Part shown: positions 3,413 through 12,239 of the stretch, one piece after another
Numbering within the stretch: the first letter of the stretch is position 1
How the letters are laid out: each line of letters opens with the position of its first letter
IMG/VR virus record: IMGVR_UViG_3300032087_005280
Coordinates: 1 to 24,526 of that record
Length of the DNA: 24,526 nucleotides
Origin: a virus
Direction: 5' to 3' (one strand)
Made by a program: the position numbers and the translations under genes
Notes under the pieces: model-generated
Told to the model about the DNA's origin: nothing
What the model saw: the letters and a program-made list of their open reading frames with translations, nothing else
Databases searched by the model: none

Positions 3413-4863
3413 TGGCGTGGGTTGGCGCTCAGGAGGCCGCCGAGTTTTGGGGACTGGCCAGCTTTAAGAGCGCGTACAAGCGGACAAAGCGCGATCCCGA
3501 GCGCTACCCCTCCCGGCCTCACCCGACGCGGCAAGGCTGGCGTCAGTATTGGATCGGCGACGGCCCACCGCCTCCGCCTGGTGCTCCCGAGGAGCTCCCC
3601 GCGCCGCCGCCGACTCGGCCGCGGGCGCTGGCACACTCACCCACTGAGGGCTGGGTGGAGCGTGACGGCTACGTCTACGATGGACGCCGTGACGTCTACG
3701 TCCTCACACTCCCGTCTCACCGCCGTCCCTTTGTCTTGGACGGCTCCCGCCTCCGCCAGATCTGGCGACGCTACGCCGGAGACAAGGCCAACATTGACGA
3801 GGTGTGCCGAGACTTCGGCCTCGATCGTCAAACCTTTGTGGACGTCAAGCGCCTCCTCAAGCTCACCAAGACACGCGCCCCCTTTACGGACGAGGAGCTG
3901 GACGCGATGGACGAAGAGGGGCTCGTCGCCGACGTCCTCCGCGCCAAAGAGCAGCGGGTGATGGCGCGTGCTCAAGCGGCCTCCTGGCGCAAGATCGAGC
4001 GCCTCGCCAACTCCCGCCAGTGGCTCCGAGAGGTGATCCGCGACGCGCTCAGTGGCTCGGCGACGGTGGCGCAGCTCCCGCCGCCAGCGGGTGAGCCCGA
4101 GGACTGCGCCGTCGTCGTGGGTTGGAGTGATCTCCACGTCGGCAAGCGGGAGGCGGGAGCAAGCGTTGGCTTGGACATTCAGCTTGCAAGGCTCCGAGCG
4201 CTGGCCTCGGACGTCGTGGCGCGTGTGGCGGCGCTGAGCCCGTCACACGTCATCCTCGCCTGTACGGGCGATCTCGTGCACTCTGACACCCAAAACCAGA
4301 CGACGACAAAGGGGACGCCTCAAGGCTCACAGTCCGAAGGCTCGACAGCTATGGCGCTCCGAGGCGCGTGTGAGCTCACGGCCGCGCTCGTGTCTCGCTT
4401 GTCCGAGGTGGCGCCCTCGGTGGAAGTGGTGGTGACTCCCGGCAACCATGACGAGCTGCTAAGCCGCGCCGTCGGCCTCTACCTCGAGGCCAGCTTCTCC
4501 GGCAATGCGCGTGTGAGCGTGGACGCGGACGAGCGGAGGCGGCGCAAGTGGACGAGGTGGCGTGAGGTGCCGCTCTGCTTCTTCCACGGCGACAAGCTCA
4601 AAGGGGATCGACTGGCCGCGCTCCCAGGGCGTGAGTGTCCGCCTGGTGCCGATCCTCGGCGCGCCATCCTGCTCCACGGCCACCTCCACAAGCGGGGCTT
4701 GAGGCAGGACGTGATTGGAGGCTTTGACGTGGTGTGCTTGGCGAGCCCAGCGGGAGCCGACGACTGGCATCACGAGATGGGCTTTGAGGGAGGGGCGAAG
4801 GCGGTGACGCTGGCGGTTGTTGCGCCGTCGGGGTTGGCGGCGCTTGAGTGGGTGAGGGCTTAG
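3412..4863 (+). CDS. Calcineurin-like metallophosphoesterase with N-terminal DNA-binding-like region
   Basis: A 483-residue protein. Residues 233-483 form a calcineurin-like phosphoesterase with all signature motifs: Asp240-x-His242 (SDLHVGK), Gly286-Asp287 (CTGDLVH), Gly-Asn-His-Asp 344-347, His392 (FFHGDK) and Gly-His-x-His 423-426. These residues bind two metal ions in nucleases and phosphodiesterases. Residues 5-50 (AQEAAEFWGLASFKSAYKRT) resemble the short HTH used by excisionase/AlpA-type DNA-binding proteins, followed by a Pro-rich linker (51-70). Residues 80-215 form a helical region that may contain another HTH (IDEVCRDFGLDRQTFVDVKR, 128-147). A DNA nuclease or end-processing role is likely; the substrate is unknown. 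Its TAG stop overlaps the opposing TAA stop of the early operon by two bases, leaving no room for a terminator between them. Confidence 0.9.
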   Translation: MAWVGAQEAAEFWGLASFKSAYKRTKRDPERYPSRPHPTRQGWRQYWIGDGPPPPPGAPEELPAPPPTRPRALAHSPTEGWVERDGYVYDGRRDVYVLTLPSHRRPFVLDGSRLRQIWRRYAGDKANIDEVCRDFGLDRQTFVDVKRLLKLTKTRAPFTDEELDAMDEEGLVADVLRAKEQRVMARAQAASWRKIERLANSRQWLREVIRDALSGSATVAQLPPPAGEPEDCAVVVGWSDLHVGKREAGASVGLDIQLARLRALASDVVARVAALSPSHVILACTGDLVHSDTQNQTTTKGTPQGSQSEGSTAMALRGACELTAALVSRLSEVAPSVEVVVTPGNHDELLSRAVGLYLEASFSGNARVSVDADERRRRKWTRWREVPLCFFHGDKLKGDRLAALPGRECPPGADPRRAILLHGHLHKRGLRQDVIGGFDVVCLASPAGADDWHHEMGFEGGAKAVTLAVVAPSGLAALEWVRA

Positions 4864-5126
4864 GCGCTCGGCGTCCACGGGATAAGCTCCTCGTCCCATT
4901 GGGCGGTGACGTCGGCCACCCACCAAATCCCCTCGATCTCTTGGAGGAGCTCCTCGGAGGCTTCGCCCTCAAAGATGAGCGTCCCGCCGCCTCGAGGCTG
5001 GGTGTCGTCGGGATCAAGCGCGTCGTGTAGCGTCTCGTCTACGAGCTTGGCGTCAAACGCCTCCGGCAGCTCGGCGAGCAAGTCGTCAGGGCTGTAAGAG
5101 TAGTATGCAATCATGATCACTTTCAT
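4860..5126 (-). CDS. Small acidic protein A, related to protein B
   Basis: An 88-residue, strongly acidic protein (about 21 Asp/Glu against 3 Lys/Arg). It begins MKVIMIAYYSYSPDD and carries FEGEASEELLQEIEGIWWVA at about 52-71. This segment aligns with FLDGDASEEAIEAIKALPWV in the next upstream gene, so the two are probably old tandem duplicates with an alternating beta/alpha fold. The start is placed at 5126 because of the conserved leader GAGGAAACCTCA immediately upstream, itself preceded by an 18-base palindrome. No family is recognised. Small size, acidity and early expression are compatible with a DNA-mimic or host-inhibitor role, which is inference only. Confidence 0.75.
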   Translation of the reverse strand: MKVIMIAYYSYSPDDLLAELPEAFDAKLVDETLHDALDPDDTQPRGGGTLIFEGEASEELLQEIEGIWWVADVTAQWDEELIPWTPSA

Positions 5127-5162
5127 TGAGGTTTCCTCGAGTTTGGCGCGGAGCTCCGCGCC
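5127..5162 (-). promoter_or_regulatory. Leader of acidic gene A: stem-loop plus extended SD
   Basis: Read on the minus strand, a perfect 18-base palindrome GGCGCGGAGCTCCGCGCC (5145-5162) is followed by CAAACTC and then GAGGAAACCTCA (5127-5138), which abuts the ATG. The same layout recurs at four other early genes. The palindrome can fold into a strong hairpin just before the ribosome binding site. Confidence 0.6.
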
Positions 5163-5172
5163 GTGGTGTGTG

Positions 5173-5418
5173 TCAGTCGGCGGCGACGCCGTCAACCCAA
5201 GGCAAGGCTTTGATCGCCTCAATCGCCTCCTCGCTCGCGTCGCCGTCGAGGAAGACGGCACCCTGTGGGATCCCGTTGCGCCCGGGCTCGATCACCTCGT
5301 CGATCTCGGCGTCGAGGCCGTCAACCATCAAATCATACTCAAAGGGTGCGCAGTCGTCGGCAGCGGGGCGGAAGTGGGAAAGATCAGCGTCGTGCTTGAT
5401 TGCGATCAAAATGGTCAT
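5173..5418 (-). CDS. Small acidic protein B, related to protein A
   Basis: An 81-residue protein with about 19 acidic and 4 basic (Lys/Arg) residues. It begins MTILIAIKHDADLSHF and ends with FLDGDASEEAIEAIKALPWV plus a few residues, which matches the C-terminal part of the downstream protein A (FEGEASEELLQEIEGIWWVA). The start at 5418 is supported by AGGAGACACCACG upstream on the minus strand. It lies between acidic genes C and A in what looks like one transcript from the promoter near 5.82 kb. Function unknown. Paralogous pairs of small acidic early proteins are common among host-takeover or anti-defence genes, but nothing here proves that. Confidence 0.75.
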   Translation of the reverse strand: MTILIAIKHDADLSHFRPAADDCAPFEYDLMVDGLDAEIDEVIEPGRNGIPQGAVFLDGDASEEAIEAIKALPWVDGVAAD

Positions 5419-5459
5419 CGTGGTGTCTCCTGTGGTATGCGCGGCGAGCTGCGCCGCGC
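5419..5459 (-). promoter_or_regulatory. Leader of acidic gene B: stem-loop plus SD
   Basis: On the minus strand, GCGCGGCG, loop CAGCT, CGCCGCGC (5439-5459) forms an 8-bp stem. It is followed by ATACCAC and the ribosome binding site AGGAGACACCACG before the ATG. The stem sequence differs from the leaders of genes A and C but sits in the same place, which argues for a conserved structure rather than copied DNA. Confidence 0.55.
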
Positions 5460-5470
5460 AGTGTGGTGTG

Positions 5471-5761
5471 TCAGAAGGGGATCGCGTCTTGGTCGTAGTC
5501 GTCAAAGTTGTCGGGGACGTTGTGAGCGTCCTGGGCGCGCCACTGGAGAAGCTCTTTGTACCAGAAGGGGATCGGGTGGTGTCCGCCCTCGTGCTTGGCG
5601 TTGAGCCAGTCGAGGAGCTCCTCCGCGTGGTTCTCCTCGTGCTCCTCAAAGCCCTCGATCACGTCGCCCTTGGAGTTGACGACGGCGACGGACTCAAAGC
5701 CGTTGTGGTTGTCCCACTGAGCGACGAAGGGGCCGAGGGCAAAGTCAATGTTAATGTTCAT
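5471..5761 (-). CDS. Small acidic protein C
   Basis: A 96-residue protein with about 20 acidic and 4 Lys/Arg residues. It begins MNINIDFALGPFVAQWDNHN, has a central His/Glu-rich helix (VIEGFEEHEENHAEELLDWL, about 34-53) and an acidic tail (DNFDDYDQDAIPF). It is the first gene after the strong promoter at 5805-5833 and so should be the most highly expressed of the three acidic genes. The start at 5761 is supported by GGGAACCTCAC directly upstream, a variant of the shared leader. It is not obviously homologous to A and B. No family recognised. Confidence 0.75.
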   Translation of the reverse strand: MNINIDFALGPFVAQWDNHNGFESVAVVNSKGDVIEGFEEHEENHAEELLDWLNAKHEGGHHPIPFWYKELLQWRAQDAHNVPDNFDDYDQDAIPF

Positions 5762-5779
5762 GTGAGGTTCCCGTGTTGT

Positions 5780-5794
5780 GCGGCCCAGCGCCGC
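5780..5794 (-). promoter_or_regulatory. 5' stem-loop of the acidic-gene transcript
   Basis: On the minus strand GCGGC, loop GCTGG, GCCGC forms a hairpin that would begin only a few bases after the predicted transcription start (about 5798). The leader of the SWIM-protein transcript at 8879-8894 has the same stem, GCGGC/GCCGC. A stem-loop at the extreme 5' end is a known mRNA-stabilising device; that role is inferred here. Confidence 0.55.
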
Positions 5795-5804
5795 GTCCAC
5801 AACC

Positions 5805-5833
5805 AATATAGGTGCACCTACCTCTACAGTCAA
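5805..5833 (-). promoter_or_regulatory. Sigma70-type early promoter with UP-like element
   Basis: On the minus strand TTGACT (5828-5833), a 17-base spacer and TATATT (5805-5810) make a near-consensus promoter reading into the three acidic genes. Directly upstream is an A/T-rich tract, AAATTATTTTAACAAAAC, unusual in this high-GC window and placed like an UP element. It should be a strong early promoter. Confidence 0.75.
5809..5820. promoter_or_regulatory. Candidate operator palindrome
   Basis: TAGGTGCACCTA is a perfect 12-base palindrome lying in the spacer and overlapping the -10 edge of the 5805-5833 promoter. A repressor bound here would block RNA polymerase. The binding protein is unknown; the XRE protein at 9023 or the triple-HTH protein at 7062 are candidates. 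Confidence 0.5.
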
Positions 5834-5881
5834 CATGTTTTGTTAAAATAATTTAAGAGCAAGAGGAGAAGGGAAGGGGGG

Positions 5882-6364
5882 CTAAACCTCCACCTCCCAC
5901 ACCTCAATGACGACACACGGCTCCTCGTCTTGAGCGGCGTACCACTTGCGCGCCGCCAGCTCCACGACCGCTTTGTCGTCGTGGATGACACACGGCCTCC
6001 TCTTCGCCGTGTCGCCTTGCAAGGCGTCCAGCGCCGCCTTGACGTAGTTGTCCAGATCGGGCGTCGTCGGCCGATGCACTCGGCCTGGTGCCTCCCGCCA
6101 CTTCGCCGCCGTCCACCCGAGGGACTTGAGCGACGCGGGTAAGCTCTTCGGCCGAGCCGTCACCACGTCCACCTCAACGCGCAGTGGGCCGCTCAGAGGC
6201 GCGGACATGCTCCACAGAGGCCAGATCGCCAGCGCCGCCGCGTCGTACCACTGCTCAAGCTTGGGAGGGCTGTAGACGCGCTTGGAGCGTCCAGCAAAGC
6301 GGGGACGTTGCCACGCTTGAGGAGGGCCGGGGATCGTCACTCGGAACGTTGACTCGTCGCTCAT
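5882..6364 (-). CDS. rusA: RusA-type Holliday junction resolvase
   Basis: A 160-residue protein with the RusA family layout. An N-terminal VTIPGPPQAWQRPRF segment is followed by the conserved acidic core TPDLDNYVKAALDAL (101-115, Asp103 and Asp105) and VIHDDKAVVEL (126-136, Asp129/Asp130 and Lys131). RusA enzymes are small dimeric, metal-dependent nucleases that cut four-way DNA junctions, and phages use them to resolve recombination or replication intermediates before packaging. The length is close to the usual 120-150 residues. The ATG overlaps the stop of the upstream HTH gene (ATGA), so the two are co-expressed in the leftward operon. Catalytic residues appear intact. Confidence 0.9.
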   Translation of the reverse strand: MSDESTFRVTIPGPPQAWQRPRFAGRSKRVYSPPKLEQWYDAAALAIWPLWSMSAPLSGPLRVEVDVVTARPKSLPASLKSLGWTAAKWREAPGRVHRPTTPDLDNYVKAALDALQGDTAKRRPCVIHDDKAVVELAARKWYAAQDEEPCVVIEVWEVEV

Positions 6365-7062
6365 GGCTTGCGCGCCTCCACGGCCTCGAGGGCCTCGTCT
6401 CGTGTGGCGAAGTGTCCCGCCAGCTCAGGCTCCAAGACTATAAAGCGTTTGTCCCGAGCCTCAAGGCCGCGATCTGTGAGCGTGACCGTCTCCCCCGTCT
6501 CAAAGTGCCTCCATTGCTCGTCGTCGTCGGCGTTCCACACGAGCCTCCACCGCATCGTCGCACGCCCCACAAAGCGCCGATCTCCGCCTCCGCCGCCTCG
6601 GATCTGGACGCCAGCGGCGCGGAGGATGCGCCGGATCGTCTTTGAGCGGAGCGTCTCTTCTACGCCGAGATCCTCAAGGCTTGCACCCTCGGCGTACCTC
6701 CGAACAACCCGCGCAACCAGCTCCGGCGCAAAGTCCCCGGCCGAGGCGCTTTGAGCTTTGATCTTGGCCAACCCCCTCGAGTGGAGGACGGCGTTGACGG
6801 TGGCGTGTGAGCATCCCACCTGCTCGGCGATGGCGCGGGTGCTCAGCCCTTGTTGACGGAGCCCAGCGATCTTGTCGTGATCGTAGTGTGTTGAGCGCTT
6901 GCGGCCGAGGCCGTTGCCACCAAAGCCAGCGCGCCGACACATGGTGTAAACCGTGGAGATCGGGATGTTGAGCGTGAGGCCGATGTATTGCGCGTTGTGC
7001 CCAGCACGGCGCAGCTCCAAGACGGCCGCGATCTGTGCCTCTGTGTAGCGTGAGCGTCCCAT
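6361..7062 (-). CDS. Protein with three helix-turn-helix units
   Basis: A 233-residue protein in which three HTH-like units follow one another: YTEAQIAAVLELRRAG to VYTMCRRAG (about 6-45), KIAGLRQQGLSTRAIAEQVG to NAVLHSRGL (about 64-97) and ELVARVVRRYAEGASLEDLG to RRILRAAGV (about 113-148). A basic glycine-rich linker (GGGGGDRRFVGR) leads to a C-terminal beta-rich region (residues about 165-233) of unknown role. The N-terminal units resemble the HTH repeats of transposases, resolvases and Hin-type DNA-binding domains, but no catalytic domain is visible. A site-specific DNA-binding regulator is the likely role. The start at 7062 is chosen for its ACGAGGAGGCT ribosome binding site. It is co-translated with the RusA gene. 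Confidence 0.8.
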   Translation of the reverse strand: MGRSRYTEAQIAAVLELRRAGHNAQYIGLTLNIPISTVYTMCRRAGFGGNGLGRKRSTHYDHDKIAGLRQQGLSTRAIAEQVGCSHATVNAVLHSRGLAKIKAQSASAGDFAPELVARVVRRYAEGASLEDLGVEETLRSKTIRRILRAAGVQIRGGGGGDRRFVGRATMRWRLVWNADDDEQWRHFETGETVTLTDRGLEARDKRFIVLEPELAGHFATRDEALEAVEARKP

Positions 7063-7386
7063 AGCCTCCTCGTTAATGCTGGCGTCGGTTTGCGTGGCGT
7101 CGGCTTGTCTTGAGCGTGACATCAAGGACAATGGCCGCACACACACCACCCTCACCCGCCAAATGGCGACGACGACGCCGTTGGCAGTACGGCGCTACCC
7201 AACGCCGCCGGAAACCTCTTCCCGCCAATGGCGTCGTCGTCAAAGCCGAGTGGAGGGCTCGAACCTCCTGGCCGCCTTCGGCCTCGGCAAAGTCTGCGCC
7301 TCTCGTTACCTCGAACCATATTGGACGTATGGTAGTAAAACAATGCAAGCGGGACGCAGACTCACCGCTTGCGTGACTGGTGACTG
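7063..7386. other. 324-base gap without a credible gene
   Basis: The gap lies between two leftward genes. Open frames here are short and low in coding character, and none has a good ribosome binding site. It holds a compact three-stem foldable element (7245-7288) and an interrupted inverted repeat ACCATA-7-TATGGT (7315-7333) in a locally A/T-rich patch that could be a promoter or operator for the HTH/RusA pair. No convincing -35/-10 pair was found. Confidence 0.5.
7245..7288 (-). other. Foldable element with tRNA T-arm-like hairpin
   Basis: On the minus strand the outer stem GCCGAG/CTCGGC encloses two hairpins. One is GCCG-AAGG-CGGC. The other is GGAGG-TTCGAGC-CCTCC, an exact 5-7-5 match to a tRNA T-arm, with the loop fitting TTCRANY. 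There is no D-arm, anticodon arm or CCA, so it is not a tRNA gene. It might be an attachment core derived from a tRNA 3' end, a small structured RNA, or chance. Confidence 0.35.
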
Positions 7387-7758
7387 TCAGGAGCGGACCC
7401 ACGCTCGGAGCTCACCCCGCGTCAAGCGCGTCCCGTCCTCCCACATGTACTGAGTGAGCTCGTCCTCGTCCCCGCGCCGCGTCGGGTGCTCCCCGAGGGT
7501 GGCCAACTCAACGGCGACGTTGCGCGATCCGACGGCTCCGTTGTAGAACCACAGATCATCCGAGAACCACAGATCGAGGCCGAAGACGCGGATCCTGTCG
7601 AGGCGGTAGTCCGCCTTGAAGCCGAGGACGCGGAGCCAGGTGGCCAGCTCCGCCAGCGCTCGGCGCTGGGTGGGCACGTCGTCAGTCATCCCGATGGTGC
7701 GGGAGGCGGCTTGGAGGGAGGCGCAGAGGCGGCGGACGGTTTGTGTGTAAGTGCTCAT
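7387..7758 (-). CDS. Hypothetical early protein
   Basis: A 123-residue protein of unknown function. The N-terminal half is helical (MSTYTQTVRRLCASLQAASR), the middle is mixed (RIRVFGLDLWFSDDLWFYNG, about 56-75), and the C-terminus is charged. No membrane segment or metal motif. The start at 7758 is supported by AAGGAAACCTC directly before the ATG on the minus strand, a shared leader element of this operon, with a 6-bp hairpin immediately upstream. The ATG overlaps the stop of the zinc-ribbon gene (ATGA). The leftward operon context points to an early, host-interaction or DNA-metabolism role; this is inference. Confidence 0.7.
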   Translation of the reverse strand: MSTYTQTVRRLCASLQAASRTIGMTDDVPTQRRALAELATWLRVLGFKADYRLDRIRVFGLDLWFSDDLWFYNGAVGSRNVAVELATLGEHPTRRGDEDELTQYMWEDGTRLTRGELRAWVRS

Positions 7759-7994
7759 GAGGTTTCCTTGCAAGCGTGGAGCTTGCGTCCTATTTGCGCC
7801 ATCCTCGGCGCGTGTGTGAGTGGAATGACGCGGCCTGTCAAAACCTTGCCGCGTCGCGTCAAAACTTGCTCGTCCCCTTCGCCGACGACGCACGCAACGA
7901 GCGCGGAGCCGACGAGAGGGCCGTCTGGAGTCAACCGCTCAAGCGCCGCCCCACAGTCGGGACAGCGCTGAGCCCTTGTCCTCGAGGGGCTCAA
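7755..7994 (-). CDS. Small zinc-ribbon-like protein
   Basis: A 79-residue protein with an N-terminal Cys-Pro-Asp-Cys knuckle (RAQRCPDCGAALERLTPDG, about 8-26). The second metal-binding pair is not a clear CxxC: only Cys35 and Cys75 are available, so the zinc site may be incomplete. The start is TTG at 7994, overlapping the TGA of the upstream SWIM gene. Another gene of this window (21932) also starts with TTG inside its predecessor's stop, so this kind of coupled TTG start seems to be a habit of this genome. The stop overlaps the next gene's ATG. Function unknown; such knuckles often bind nucleic acid or protein. Confidence 0.6.
   Translation of the reverse strand: MSPSRTRAQRCPDCGAALERLTPDGPLVGSALVACVVGEGDEQVLTRRGKVLTGRVIPLTHAPRMAQIGRKLHACKETS
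7758..7786 (-). promoter_or_regulatory. Leader of the 7387-7758 gene: stem-loop plus extended SD
   Basis: On the minus strand GCAAGC, loop TCCAC, GCTTGC (7770-7786) is followed at once by AAGGAAACCTCA (7758-7769, the last A being that of the ATG). This is an exact copy of the 12-base element found before the SWIM-protein and dnaB genes. It lies inside the C-terminal codons of the zinc-ribbon gene, so translation of that gene would unfold the hairpin. Confidence 0.6.
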
Positions 7995-8860
7995 AGGACA
8001 AACTCACGTTGAGCGGCGTGCTTGTTGTAGTGGATCTTGGAGACGGCCATTGAGGCGAAGCCGATGAAGCGGCTCATGGCTTGAGGCACGTCCAGCTTGT
8101 CTCCGCGCACCGTCCGGGGCGTCTCCTCAAGGATCTGCTCCCACGTCCTGATAATGGCCTGAGCCTTCACCTCGGGAGAGGCCGTCCCGCGTCGGCTGAG
8201 CACGTCGTAGAGGTCCCGCGCCGCCTTCTCCCAAGCGTCGGCGGTGTTGGCGGCGGTGAGGTGCCAGCACTTGCGGCCGTGGCGCGCCGCTGGGCATGTG
8301 CAGCTCCTCGAGCGTCCGGAGCCCATCACCTGATAGCTTGAGAGGTGTTGGCCGGGTTGGCGCTTGTGCTCAGGAGTGCGGGAGCGGACGTGGAGGCCGG
8401 GGAGCCCGTCGAGCTCAAACACGGGGGCGGCGTCGGCCAACATGGCCTCAGCGGTGGCTGGCATCTCAACGTAATCCTCAGAGGGCCAGTCGGCGTCCTG
8501 CTCCTGGCCGTCCTCCTCTTCCTCGTGGAGGCCGAGGCTTTTGAGGTAGTCCAGCGCCAAGTCCACGGCGTCGGGGACGACGTCGTAGGTGATGAGGTGT
8601 TGCACGCCGCTCGTGTCCTCGGCCCACGTCTCGCCAGTGGTGACGTAGACAATGTGGTTGAGGTGAGCGGCGTTGACGATGAGCTCGCCCACGCCTTGAG
8701 TCTCGACGGCCACGACGAAGGGGCGCTCGGAGCTGGGGACGAGGCGGTTGATCTGCGCGACGACAGCGGGGATCGGCAAGCGGCCGTAGCGGGTCACGGC
8801 GGTGATGCAACGATCGAGAAGGTTGACGGCGGTGAGCATGTCTTGTGTGAGGTTCTGCAT
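7991..8860 (-). CDS. SWIM zinc-finger protein
   Basis: A 289-residue protein. The C-terminal half contains a SWIM-type zinc finger, SCTCPAARHGRKCWHLTAAN (186-205), with ligands Cys187, Cys189, Cys198 and His200. SWIM domains bind nucleic acid or proteins and occur in recombination and chromatin factors. Residues 40-110 look like a compact alpha/beta domain (PFVVAVETQGVGELIVNAAH). A very acidic linker (EEEEDGQEQDADWPSEDY, about 113-130) separates the two parts. It is the first gene after the leftward promoter at 8906-8934 and thus probably the earliest expressed. The start at 8860 has AAGGAAACCTCATC upstream. The particular biochemical role is unknown. Confidence 0.75.
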   Translation of the reverse strand: MQNLTQDMLTAVNLLDRCITAVTRYGRLPIPAVVAQINRLVPSSERPFVVAVETQGVGELIVNAAHLNHIVYVTTGETWAEDTSGVQHLITYDVVPDAVDLALDYLKSLGLHEEEEDGQEQDADWPSEDYVEMPATAEAMLADAAPVFELDGLPGLHVRSRTPEHKRQPGQHLSSYQVMGSGRSRSCTCPAARHGRKCWHLTAANTADAWEKAARDLYDVLSRRGTASPEVKAQAIIRTWEQILEETPRTVRGDKLDVPQAMSRFIGFASMAVSKIHYNKHAAQREFVL

Positions 8861-8894
8861 GATGAGGTTTCCTTGTCGGCGGCTCCATTGCCGC
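8861..8894 (-). promoter_or_regulatory. Leader of the SWIM gene: 5' stem-loop plus extended SD
   Basis: On the minus strand GCGGC, loop AATGGA, GCCGC (8879-8894) is followed by CGAC and AAGGAAACCTCA (8863-8874), then TC and the ATG. The predicted transcript start is about 8899, so the hairpin lies at the 5' end of the mRNA, as it does in the acidic-gene transcript. Confidence 0.6.
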
Positions 8895-8905: not shown

Positions 8906-8934
8906 ACAATAACCCCTCCCTCCCTACCCGTCAA
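8906..8934 (-). promoter_or_regulatory. Leftward early promoter with UP-like element
   Basis: On the minus strand TTGACG (8929-8934), a 17-base spacer and TATTGT (8906-8911). The A/T-rich tract upstream (TTAATTATTTGCAAAATG) is nearly the same as that upstream of the 5805-5833 promoter, which supports both as genuine early promoters. Confidence 0.7.
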
Positions 8935-8939
8935 TAACA

Positions 8940-8972
8940 TTTTGCAAATAATTAAAAGTAAGTGCTTGCAAG
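8940..8972. promoter_or_regulatory. Paired TTGCAA palindromes in the divergent control region
   Basis: TTTGCAAA (8941-8948 or one base around) and CTTGCAAG (8965-8972) are palindromes with the same TTGCAA core, with centres 24 bases apart, lying between the leftward promoter and the XRE gene. This is the expected place for operators of that regulator. The second TTGCAA also lies 17 bases before TAGCTT (8989), a weak rightward promoter candidate. Confidence 0.4.
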
Positions 8973-9000
8973 GGGGGCAAATAGAGTCTAGCTTTGGGGA

Positions 9001-9017
9001 GCGCCAGAGGAGGGCGC
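9001..9017 (+). promoter_or_regulatory. Hairpin holding the ribosome binding site of the XRE gene
   Basis: GCGCC (9001-9005), AGAGGAG, GGCGC (9013-9017): a 5-bp stem presents the Shine-Dalgarno AGAGGAGG mostly in its loop, five to eight bases before the ATG at 9023. It could modulate initiation, but short GC stems are common at this base composition. Confidence 0.35.
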
Positions 9018-9022
9018 AAGTG

Positions 9023-9319
9023 ATGAGAGAAGATCTTACCGACAAGAACGCACGCCAGATCAAAGCGTGGTTGATGCTCCGTGGCCTCAAGGTTGCGGAC
9101 TTGGCGAAGGCGCTGGGAGCGACGGAGACGACGATCTACAACTACTTGGCAGGACGCCAAGCCTGGCCAGCGGTGAGGGCGCGCTTTGTGTCGCTCGTGA
9201 TGGGCGTCCCGTTGCGCGCTTTGCTCGATCCGAAGGGTGAGGGTGCCGCCGCCGCCGCTGAGTGGATCCGAGAGATCGAGGCGCGGGAGCTGGCCGCCGA
9301 GGAGGTGGTGAATGACTGA
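9023..9319 (+). CDS. XRE/Cro-type HTH regulator
   Basis: A 98-residue protein with a Cro/CI-like helix-turn-helix in its first two thirds. QIKAWLMLRGLKVADLAKAL followed by GATETTIYNYLAGRQAWPAV (about 11-50) has the spacing of the XRE family, with recognition helix ETTIYNYLAG. The C-terminus is a Glu/Ala-rich helix. It is the first gene transcribed rightward from the divergent control region and precedes the replication genes, which is where phages place Cro-like regulators. It likely represses one or both divergent promoters, binding perhaps the paired TTGCAA sites. The ATG at 9023 is taken because the long upstream extension of the frame is antisense to the SWIM gene. The end overlaps the ATG of the next gene. 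Confidence 0.85.
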   Translation: MREDLTDKNARQIKAWLMLRGLKVADLAKALGATETTIYNYLAGRQAWPAVRARFVSLVMGVPLRALLDPKGEGAAAAAEWIREIEARELAAEEVVND

Positions 9320-10727
9320 GCTTCTCCAAGTGGCCGCCGCCTACTTTGAGCCGCTGGCCGCTGGCTACACCGTGAGCGTCCACCCGGCCGCCGACGCTTT
9401 ACCCATGCTCGAGGACGACGCCGCCGCGTCCCTCCTGGCGGACGTCAAGGCTCATGGGTTGAGGGAGCGGATCAAGATCTGGATCGATCAAGATCGTGAG
9501 ACGATGTGGCTCGTGGACGGGCGCAACCGCACACGCGCCGCCGCCGCCGCTGGCCTCGAGTGTGACTCCGTCGTGGAGTGGGTGAGCTTCGCCGACGACG
9601 CCGAGGTTGCGCGCTACGTCTTCTCACTCAACCTCGAGCGCCGACACCTCAACACGTCTCAGCGCTCAATGGCCGGAGCTCGCCTCTTGCCCATGTTTGA
9701 GGAGGCGGCTCGGGAGCGGCAAGGCGCACGGAGCGACTTAACATCTGCGCAAATTTGCACAGAAGTAAGAGTCCATAGAGCGGACGAGGAGGCCGCCGCC
9801 GCGCTCAACACCTCGGCGCGGAGCGTGGCCAGCGCCAAGAAAGTCCTCAACGATGCGCCAGAGCTTGCGCCGCTCGTGGACGCTGGCCAGCTCCCCGTCT
9901 CCGCCGCCGCCAAGCTGGCGGGTGAGGACGAGGCGACACGCGCCGAGGTGGCCTCCGCCGTCTCCGATGGCGTCAAGTGGAAGAAGGCGCTGGCCACTGC
10001 AAAGCGCAAGGCCGCACGCGCCGAGGTGGCCTCCGCCGCCGCGCCTCCGCCGACTGGCGTGAGCGTTGAGCAACGAGACGCCGTGGAGTGGATCCGCGCC
10101 CTCGAGGACAAGTCCGTCAACCTGCTCCTCACCGATCCGCCGTACAACGTCACGGACAACGACTGGGACTCCTGGGAGGAGGCGGAGGACTACTGGCGCT
10201 GGATGGGGACGTGGTTGGAGGCGATGAGGCCGAAGCTGGCCGACGACGCCGTGAGCTTTGTGTTTTGTGATGCGCGAGTCAGTCACCGCCTCCGCGCCCT
10301 CTTGGAGGAGCATGGGTACGCTCCGAGGTGTCAAGCGATCTGGCACCGTCCAAACCTCGGCAAGCGGCGCAGTGGCGTTAACACCTTCCTGTCAAGCTAT
10401 GAGCCCTTCTGGCATTGCGGCGGGTCGTTGCGCTTTCCCGAGGAGTGGGGAGAGGAGCGCTTTGACGTCCAGCGCGTGACGGCTCCTCAGTCCAACCACC
10501 TCGAGGACAAGGCCGTCCACCCGACGCAGAAGCCGATGGCGCTGTTTAGGCGTCTCGTGCGCCTCGGGAGTGACGAGGGCGCGCTCGTGGTGGATCCCTT
10601 CCTCGGCTCGGGGACGAGCGCCGTGGCCGCTCACCTCGAGGGGCGCAGTTTTGCGGGATGTGATCAGAGCGCTGAATACGTGGACATTGCGCTGGGACGA
10701 CTGGCCAGCGTCAAGGGGGAGCGATGA
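9312..10727 (+). CDS. ParB-domain / DNA methyltransferase fusion
   Basis: A 471-residue, two-part protein. Residues about 20-110 are a ParB/Srx-type domain (VDGRNRTRAAAAAG, 68-81, is the conserved basic loop), followed by a helical KorB-like region with an HTH-like stretch (EEAAAALNTSARSVASAKKV, 159-178). The C-terminal part is an adenine-N6 or cytosine-N4 methyltransferase: catalytic Asp-Pro-Pro-Tyr 275-278 comes before the S-adenosylmethionine-binding motif DPFLGSGTS at 428-436, the beta-class order. Such fusions are known in phages and modify DNA sequence-specifically, either against host restriction or to regulate replication. No matching restriction gene is nearby, so it is an orphan. 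It starts inside the XRE stop region and ends ATGA into the next gene. Confidence 0.9.
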   Translation: MTELLQVAAAYFEPLAAGYTVSVHPAADALPMLEDDAAASLLADVKAHGLRERIKIWIDQDRETMWLVDGRNRTRAAAAAGLECDSVVEWVSFADDAEVARYVFSLNLERRHLNTSQRSMAGARLLPMFEEAARERQGARSDLTSAQICTEVRVHRADEEAAAALNTSARSVASAKKVLNDAPELAPLVDAGQLPVSAAAKLAGEDEATRAEVASAVSDGVKWKKALATAKRKAARAEVASAAAPPPTGVSVEQRDAVEWIRALEDKSVNLLLTDPPYNVTDNDWDSWEEAEDYWRWMGTWLEAMRPKLADDAVSFVFCDARVSHRLRALLEEHGYAPRCQAIWHRPNLGKRRSGVNTFLSSYEPFWHCGGSLRFPEEWGEERFDVQRVTAPQSNHLEDKAVHPTQKPMALFRRLVRLGSDEGALVVDPFLGSGTSAVAAHLEGRSFAGCDQSAEYVDIALGRLASVKGER

Positions 10728-11429: not shown

Positions 11430-12239
11430 GTGAATACCTTTGAGCTCCAACGCGCCATCCGCGACGACGCCACCCTCAACGGGGGAGAGGTGGCCGTCCT
11501 CCTCGTCCTCACCACCTACCTCCCGCACGCCGCGCCGAGTGTGGACGCGATCGCTCTGGGTTGTCGGATGAATGCCAAGAGCGTCCGGCGCATCCTCAAG
11601 CGCCTTGACGGGCGATGGCTCAAGCGCCAGCTCCGTCCTGGGAGGCCGTCCGTTTACACCTTCAACCCTACCACCGAGAGACCCTACCACCGAGAGACCC
11701 TACCATCGAGGAACCAGGGGTCTCTTGATGGGAGGGGGTCTACCACCGAGAGACCCCCCAAAGAGACAAATAAGAGACAACCTACTCCGACGACGATCTC
11801 CGAAGCACGAGAGCGCCTCGGAGAGTGGGCGGAGGTGTGGGATAAGGTTGTGGGGCATGGGCCGCTCCCGTCGCTCGAGGAGCTGCGCCGCTGGCGTCCG
11901 AAGGTGACAGAGGCTCACATCTCCGCTTGTCTCGGAGAGGTGGCCAACGCCAGGACGGCCGGGACAGTCAACGCGCCTCGGAGCCTCTTCTTCCACCGCC
12001 TCAAAGGCACCATCGGCAAGCCGACGCCGACGGCCTGGTCAAAGGCGCAAGTGTTGGCCGCGCTGCGCCCTGCTACCGCCACCTCCGCGCCAGACTTGCG
12101 CCGTCCCGACTTGCAGACACCCGACGTCCCGCCGCCCTTTACCGAAACACCCGAGGAGCGCAAGGCGCGCCTCAAAGTATCCCGCGCCGCCTATGAGGCG
12201 ATGAGCGCAATTCTCAAGGAAACCTCAAAGAATGACTGA
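11430..12239 (+). CDS. Replication initiator (O-like, winged HTH)
   Basis: A 269-residue protein. The N-terminus (1-75) is a winged helix (GGEVAVLLVLTTYLPHAAPS, then VDAIALGCRMNAKSVRRILK), typical of phage replication initiators. The middle (78-115) is a low-complexity Arg/Thr/Glu-rich linker encoded by DNA repeats. The C-terminal part (about 125-190, EWAEVWDKVVGHGPLPSLEE) resembles the DnaD/replisome-organiser region that contacts the helicase system. The next gene is a DnaB-type helicase, so this pair should load replication at an origin inside this very gene, as in lambda O. The start is GTG 11430, chosen for GGGTGAGGTGATC just upstream and for its position eight bases after the previous stop. 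The end overlaps the helicase ATG. Confidence 0.8.
   Translation: MNTFELQRAIRDDATLNGGEVAVLLVLTTYLPHAAPSVDAIALGCRMNAKSVRRILKRLDGRWLKRQLRPGRPSVYTFNPTTERPYHRETLPSRNQGSLDGRGSTTERPPKETNKRQPTPTTISEARERLGEWAEVWDKVVGHGPLPSLEELRRWRPKVTEAHISACLGEVANARTAGTVNAPRSLFFHRLKGTIGKPTPTAWSKAQVLAALRPATATSAPDLRRPDLQTPDVPPPFTETPEERKARLKVSRAAYEAMSAILKETSKND
11666..11753 (+). repeat. Iteron array inside the initiator gene, putative origin
   Basis: The 16-base unit CCCTACCACCGAGAGA occurs twice exactly in tandem (11666-11681, 11682-11697), then degenerate (11698-11713), then as an inverted partial copy (GGGGTCTCTTGATGG, 11717-11731) and again direct (TACCACCGAGAGA, 11741-11753). It is followed by A-rich AAAGAGACAAATAAGAGACA, a possible unwinding element. 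Since 16 is not a multiple of 3, the units are read in different frames (TTERP, then YHRET), so the DNA rather than the peptide is conserved. Confidence 0.7.
12216..12227 (+). promoter_or_regulatory. Extended SD element of the helicase gene
   Basis: AAGGAAACCTCA, identical to the element before the SWIM and 7387-7758 genes on the other strand, lies four bases before the ATG at 12232. Here it is inside the C-terminal codons of the initiator gene and has no clear stem-loop upstream. Confidence 0.6.

Follow-up and report, generated by a model that had tools for sequence, protein, structure and literature searches.

A modular early-gene leader with a covarying hairpin in a group of uncultured phages

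Two-part leaders of early genes

The early genes of the virus record IMGVR_UViG_3300032087_005280 (24,526 bases; hereafter the window) are served by a leader made of two separable parts. The first is a short motif in which a Shine-Dalgarno (SD) sequence is joined to a conserved spacer; it precedes many early genes and has one spelling per phage lineage. The second, a short GC hairpin preserved as an RNA structure, stands where each of the two leftward early transcripts is predicted to begin. Because matched base changes keep this hairpin in relatives, it probably has a function in the RNA, either boosting early messages or protecting them. Our preferred reading, to which we give about an even chance, is a modular leader for strong early expression with a cis-acting hairpin that stabilizes the 5' end and insulates the SD.

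The window combines a structural half with an early half encoding DnaB, RusA, a ParB-methyltransferase fusion, helix-turn-helix (HTH) proteins, small acidic proteins and a SWIM-motif protein (the last assigned by a Pfam match under the curated cut-off). Relatives were picked by protein identity, namely L004 (SWIM protein 93%), L005 (64%), L006 and L020 (g7387 protein 69%, SWIM protein 36%), and L021 and L022 (SWIM protein 32%). We assumed four lineages: window/L004, L005, L006/L020 and L021/L022.

Promoter leaders of the SWIM gene and gene C

The two leftward promoter leaders of the window contain the following features.

8906..8934, minus strand: predicted sigma-70-type promoter of the SWIM gene, TTGACG-17-TATTGT (9 of 12 consensus matches)
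8879..8894, minus strand: SWIM leader hairpin GCGGC-AATGGA-GCCGC, covarying in relatives (model score 34.3 bits)
5843..5856, minus strand: UP-element-like TTAAATTATTTTAA upstream of the gene C promoter, read directly and also found in L005 and L006
5805..5833, minus strand: predicted sigma-70-type promoter of gene C, TTGACT-17-TATATT (10 of 12 consensus matches)
5780..5794, minus strand: gene C leader hairpin GCGGC-GCTGG-GCCGC, covarying in relatives (model score 24.2 bits)

Both leaders have a common layout, in which an AT-rich stretch and a TTGAC-17-TATATT-like promoter are followed by 7-12 nt, the hairpin, 3-9 nt and the SD, and they look homologous. At both promoters the GC hairpin (4-9 bp) begins between about +1 and +6 relative to the predicted start, and the distance of 3-9 nt from its end to the SD holds in all leaders of this family. 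The stem sequence varies considerably. It is GCGGC/GCCGC in L020 and at both window sites, GCAGC/GCTGC before the L005 SWIM gene, GGAGC/GCTCC before L005 gene C (with an outward extension containing one bulge), GGGGC/GCCCC in L006, and GGGC/GCCC before the SWIM genes of L021 and L022. At the second promoter of L022 it reads GATGTGGGC/GCCCACATC, and the L021 version of this stem has one A-C mismatch.

All ten distinct leaders, which come from the four lineages, have a stem at the same place, and three of its five pairs show compensatory double changes. Altogether, 94% of the cells are paired, compared with 34-44% when the arms are slid; the covariation score is 0.444, compared with at most 0.124 when slid and with a mean of 0.154 for shuffles. 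These pairs were counted on hand-registered hairpins with N padding, as a MAFFT alignment of whole leaders had placed the 5-nt loops wrongly. In a covariance model search over 191 kb of relatives, the 11 leaders of the family ranked first (21.7-34.3 bits; next match 15.2 bits), a ranking in which the model by construction favours its ten training rows. Among 759 kb of other loci the sole convincing match was L038, whose leader is a copy of that in L006. A scan of the viral collection for stretches combining the UP element with TTGAC yielded 83, of which only L005 and L038 (the L006 contig) had the leader, and no match to the window leaders reached an Rfam gathering score. The compensatory changes that the sequence-only reading had named as its supporting evidence are thus present in the promoter leaders; they also occur before g7387 and, less clearly, before the XRE gene.

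The inverted repeat directly follows the start site of both leftward promoters, a position that would also suit a DNA operator bound by a phage repressor or activator, with the RNA fold as a by-product. Operators give paired changes as well, the arms are identical at the two window sites, and the inverted repeats associated with the Extended Start-Associated Sequences (ESAS) of Cluster K mycobacteriophages are thought to be DNA sites (PMC3203893). We nevertheless consider an operator improbable, because the spacer differs within one phage (5 bp at window gene C, 6 bp at the SWIM gene), which would rotate the half-sites apart, because the two sites of L005 have different arms, and because g7387, A and B have similar hairpins away from any predicted promoter. 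The G-U variants seen at the XRE gene point in the same direction.

If each early operon had a boxB/nut-like antitermination signal read by an N-like protein, the signal would likewise be expected once per leftward early promoter, with a stem of 4-9 bp, a loop of 5-6 nt, varying stems and a partly kept loop. There is little chance that this is correct: reading the leaders revealed no boxA between the promoter -10 and the hairpin, the loop is not consistently GNRA, the hairpin abuts the SD, and no N-like protein was recognised (no dedicated search was made for one).

The loop is AATGGA or GATGGA in seven of the 11 leaders, across distant lineages and on different stems. This partial conservation makes a bound protein the main rival, in which a phage or host CsrA-like RNA-binding protein would contact the GC-closed loop and the SD and control early translation. 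The GGA of the loop lies about 14-20 nt from the GGA of the SD, a spacing that fits CsrA-type double sites. Four leaders keep the stem with a loop lacking GGA (GCTGG at window gene C, GCTAG in L020, ATTGAA in L006 and GATGA at the L005 SWIM gene), and no candidate RNA-binding protein was identified; on balance we regard protein binding as unlikely. CsrA/RsmA as the general reader, which calls for GGA in all loops and SDs, was rejected on the same four loops. A more specific proposal has early translation set by a dedicated phage RNA-binding protein that recognises a GC-closed (N)AUGGA hairpin with which each leftward early transcript begins, the motif and hairpin together forming a portable control cassette under which small accessory proteins are swapped; it seems to us rather improbable.

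The gene behind the second promoter is C in the window and L005, a gene for a pentapeptide-repeat protein in L006 and one for an A/B-like protein in L021. The cassette thus seems to be maintained independently of the gene that it serves.

In the SWIM promoter, most of the -35/-10 spacer is a four-tract G-quadruplex-like run, GGGTAGGGAGGGAGGGG (8929-8913, minus strand). L004 retains all four G tracts, and the other relatives are merely G-rich here.

The start-associated motif

The 12-base motif was located at five gene starts of the window.

8863..8874, minus strand: SWIM gene, exact 12-mer AAGGAAACCTCA
7758..7769, minus strand: g7387, exact 12-mer, doubling as KETS codons of the upstream open reading frame (ORF)
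12216..12227, plus strand: dnaB, exact 12-mer with no hairpin at the SD
5127..5138, minus strand: gene A, GAGGAAACCTCA, one mismatch
5763..5774, minus strand: gene C, ACGGGAACCTCA, two mismatches

All positions of the exact and of the weaker copies agree with those given by the sequence-only reading. Three exact occurrences compare with 0.01 expected, and none of 100 shuffles reaches three. Window and L004 share AAGGAAACCTCA or near copies of it. The L005 spelling is AAGGAGACCTCA, exact or with one mismatch, before the SWIM gene, g7387, C, D, dnaB and the gene at 6456 (minus strand), and that of L006 and L020 is AAAGGACAAAC, with at most one mismatch, before the SWIM gene, the gene at the C position, D, g7387, dnaB and three more starts. 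No copies were found at the starts of structural genes in the window and L012; the motif is confined to the early/replication half. Since the structural genes of the same phages lack it, the motif is not simply the ordinary ribosome-binding site of the host. The dnaB copy of the window also codes for KETS, at the end of the upstream ORF. Coding overlap does not explain the motif, however, because the L020 dnaB copy, as read from the sequence, sits past the stop of the upstream frame.

Motif and hairpin had been proposed to belong together. They proved to be separable, as the window dnaB carries the 12-mer with no hairpin at its SD; further genes of L005 and L020 also have the motif and no matching hairpin, and the spelling is specific to the phage. 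Pairing of the SD with its own spacer (AGG-AAA-CCT), and of 5'-CAUGG with the start codon, appeared in some folds only.

Hairpins before g7387, A and B

Further hairpins precede three other leftward genes.

7770..7786, minus strand: g7387 leader hairpin GCAAGC-TCCAC-GCTTGC, covarying, within the 3' end of the upstream ORF 7755-7994
5438..5460, minus strand: intercistronic hairpin before gene B, TGCGCGGCG-CAGCT-CGCCGCGCA, 9-bp stem (0 of 500 shuffles as good)
5145..5162, minus strand: intercistronic hairpin before gene A, GGCGCGG-AGCT-CCGCGCC, 7-bp stem (0 of 500 shuffles as good)

A hairpin ending about 0-6 nt from the SD is therefore present before all five leftward genes, as had been claimed. 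Their statistical standing is uneven. In leader shuffles, A and B (0 of 500) are clearly non-random, g7387 (P 0.024) and the SWIM gene (P 0.04) weakly so, and C (P 0.12) is not; about 10% of random 36-nt stretches of the window hold a stem as good as that of the SWIM gene or C. It is thus mainly A and B that lift the window set beyond chance. The statement that the stems all differ needs correction, since the SWIM and C arms are identical (GCGGC/GCCGC), their leaders being homologous, and since genes A and B are paralogues. Nor do the five leaders form one family, as the covariance model of the two promoter leaders does not recover A, B and g7387.

These figures bear on the plainest explanation, namely that recombination within each phage has copied ordinary ribosome sites and that the GC-rich hairpins arose by chance in a genome of 63% GC. 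It draws on the modest P values of the SWIM and C hairpins taken alone and on the paralogy of A and B. The compensatory changes in orthologous leaders and a lineage-wide motif limited to early genes tell against it, and we consider it very unlikely.

Among four g7387 sequences, double changes occur at three pairs, L006 lacks two pairs, and one double change (in L005) turns Ala to Val in the upstream protein. That upstream ORF (7755-7994, minus strand) encodes a small CxxC (zinc-ribbon-like) protein, overlaps the g7387 start by ATGA and is found in L004, L005 and L006; its C-terminal codons bear both the hairpin and the motif. For A and B, the hairpin could just as well be a 3' structure of the preceding cistron; intercistronic hairpins of a similar kind occur in L006.

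Between g7387 and the HTH gene lies a conserved, apparently noncoding region (7180-7386, minus strand), partly kept in L004, L005 and L006. It has a hairpin around GCAAGCGG...CCCGCTTGC followed by the T-arm-like GGAGGTTCGAGCCCTCC; ARAGORN found no tRNA in this interval.

The divergent XRE gene

A hairpin absent from the sequence-only reading precedes the divergent XRE gene (ATG at 9023).

9001..9017, plus strand: GCGCC-AGAGGAG-GGCGC, with the SD within the loop, pairs kept

Every pair is kept in five sequences, with RNA-type G-U variants, and the statistics of so small a set are weak (97 of 500 shuffles score as high). The divergent SWIM/XRE promoter region also has a palindrome, CTTGCAAG (8960-8979, plus strand), which reads CCCTTGC...GCAAGGG in L020 and is a possible operator of the XRE protein.

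A hammerhead ribozyme in L005

Between genes C and D of L005 (10251-10315, plus strand) we identified a type II hammerhead (Hammerhead_II, RF02276; 37.3 bits against a gathering score of 37). It has the CUGANGA and GAAA elements and three stems of this type, and may cleave itself. The ribozyme abuts the SD of gene D, at a place equivalent to the intercistronic leader of the window, and suggests that processing or protection of the 5' end matters to this operon. The window itself gave no Rfam match to a hammerhead, and a pattern for another core order was also empty there.

A proposed role for the leader

On our preferred reading, sigma-70-type promoters with UP-like AT stretches would make two leftward early transcripts, each capped by the hairpin. 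With few unpaired 5' nucleotides, such messages may undergo slower 5'-end-dependent decay, and the hairpin would shield the neighbouring SD from upstream sequence and leave it accessible. Any small protein encoded behind the cassette would then be produced in large amounts early on. By way of the intercistronic hairpins (A and B) and the L005 hammerhead, downstream cistrons would acquire a 5' end that is structured or processed. A 5'-terminal stem-loop is described as stabilizing the Escherichia coli ompA mRNA (Emory et al. 1992, as cited in PMC2777011 and PMC7509114).

Several points weigh against this role. A hairpin too close to the SD can lower stability, as exemplified by ermC (PMC7509114). 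Simple stabilization does not need the partial loop conservation seen in seven of 11 leaders, and the transcript starts are predictions. The covariation draws on about four independent lineages, and the stem-based hand registration with N padding leans towards structure. The sequence-only reading had proposed a post-transcriptional control element; the compensatory changes support it in so far as the leader is selected at the RNA level, and either of the functions that it offered, protein binding or mRNA protection, would fit the sequence.

Gene context and relatives

The leftmost early operon (4860-5761, minus strand) encodes small acidic proteins of no known family, and its products are swapped among the window, L005, L006 and L021, comprising C, the A/B family, D and the pentapeptide protein. 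The exchanged small acidic proteins are candidate accessory or anti-defence genes. On the other strand, the DNA methyltransferase fused to a ParB-like domain is encoded at 9312-10727.

Among 50,697 records of named phages there was no near DNA match to the window and no SWIM match, and all DnaB and terminase matches had less than 60% identity. One scan for a host in genome contigs was empty. A second gave only DnaB matches of 31-33% in Verrucomicrobia metagenome-assembled genomes, which we judged too distant to name a host.

Comparison with known systems

The closest precedent is found in Cluster K mycobacteriophages, with their Start-Associated Sequences (SAS) and ESAS (PMC3203893, PMC11373665, PMC12699233), and so the earlier statement that no description was known is not quite right as regards the arrangement. 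In both groups the repeat is short and asymmetric, has an SD at its core and a spacer conserved beyond the part that pairs with rRNA, and lies directly before the start codons of non-structural genes only; a subset has an upstream sigma-70/SigA-type promoter and an inverted repeat. The Cluster K motif has a 13-bp consensus, GGGATAGGAGCCC, common to subclusters, whereas the motifs here (AAGGAAACCTCA, AAGGAGACCTCA and AAAGGACAAAC) change spelling between lineages. ESAS repeats are 17 bp long and conserved in sequence, with no support for RNA pairing; in contrast, the stems described here are 4-9 bp, vary in sequence with compensatory changes and lie downstream of the -10. Because of the different consensus and the presence of RNA pairing, the leader is not a member of SAS/ESAS. 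We found no sequence relationship with Cluster K, and the group studied here is one of uncultured phages, independent of Cluster K, with a similar leader arrangement.

The likeness to the ompA 5' stem-loop lies in a hairpin a few nucleotides from the 5' end (predicted here) of an SD-bearing leader; stabilization is described for ompA and would be the proposed effect here. The ompA leader is also longer and more structured.

Phage leader hammerheads offer a third comparison. In HF1/HF2 a hammerhead lies 13 nt upstream of the start codon of an early helicase, and in prophages hammerheads occur around single genes (PMC3088659). The L005 type II hammerhead similarly adjoins the SD of an early gene on its upstream side, whereas the window has none.

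What SAS do in phages has been an open question since 2011, with little support for RNA pairing from the inverted repeats of Cluster K. Since the repeat described here behaves as an RNA hairpin, a post-transcriptional role becomes directly testable with small reporters. In addition, a cassette that stays constant while its gene changes provides a handle for finding fast-exchanged small early proteins, which are possible host-takeover or anti-defence genes.

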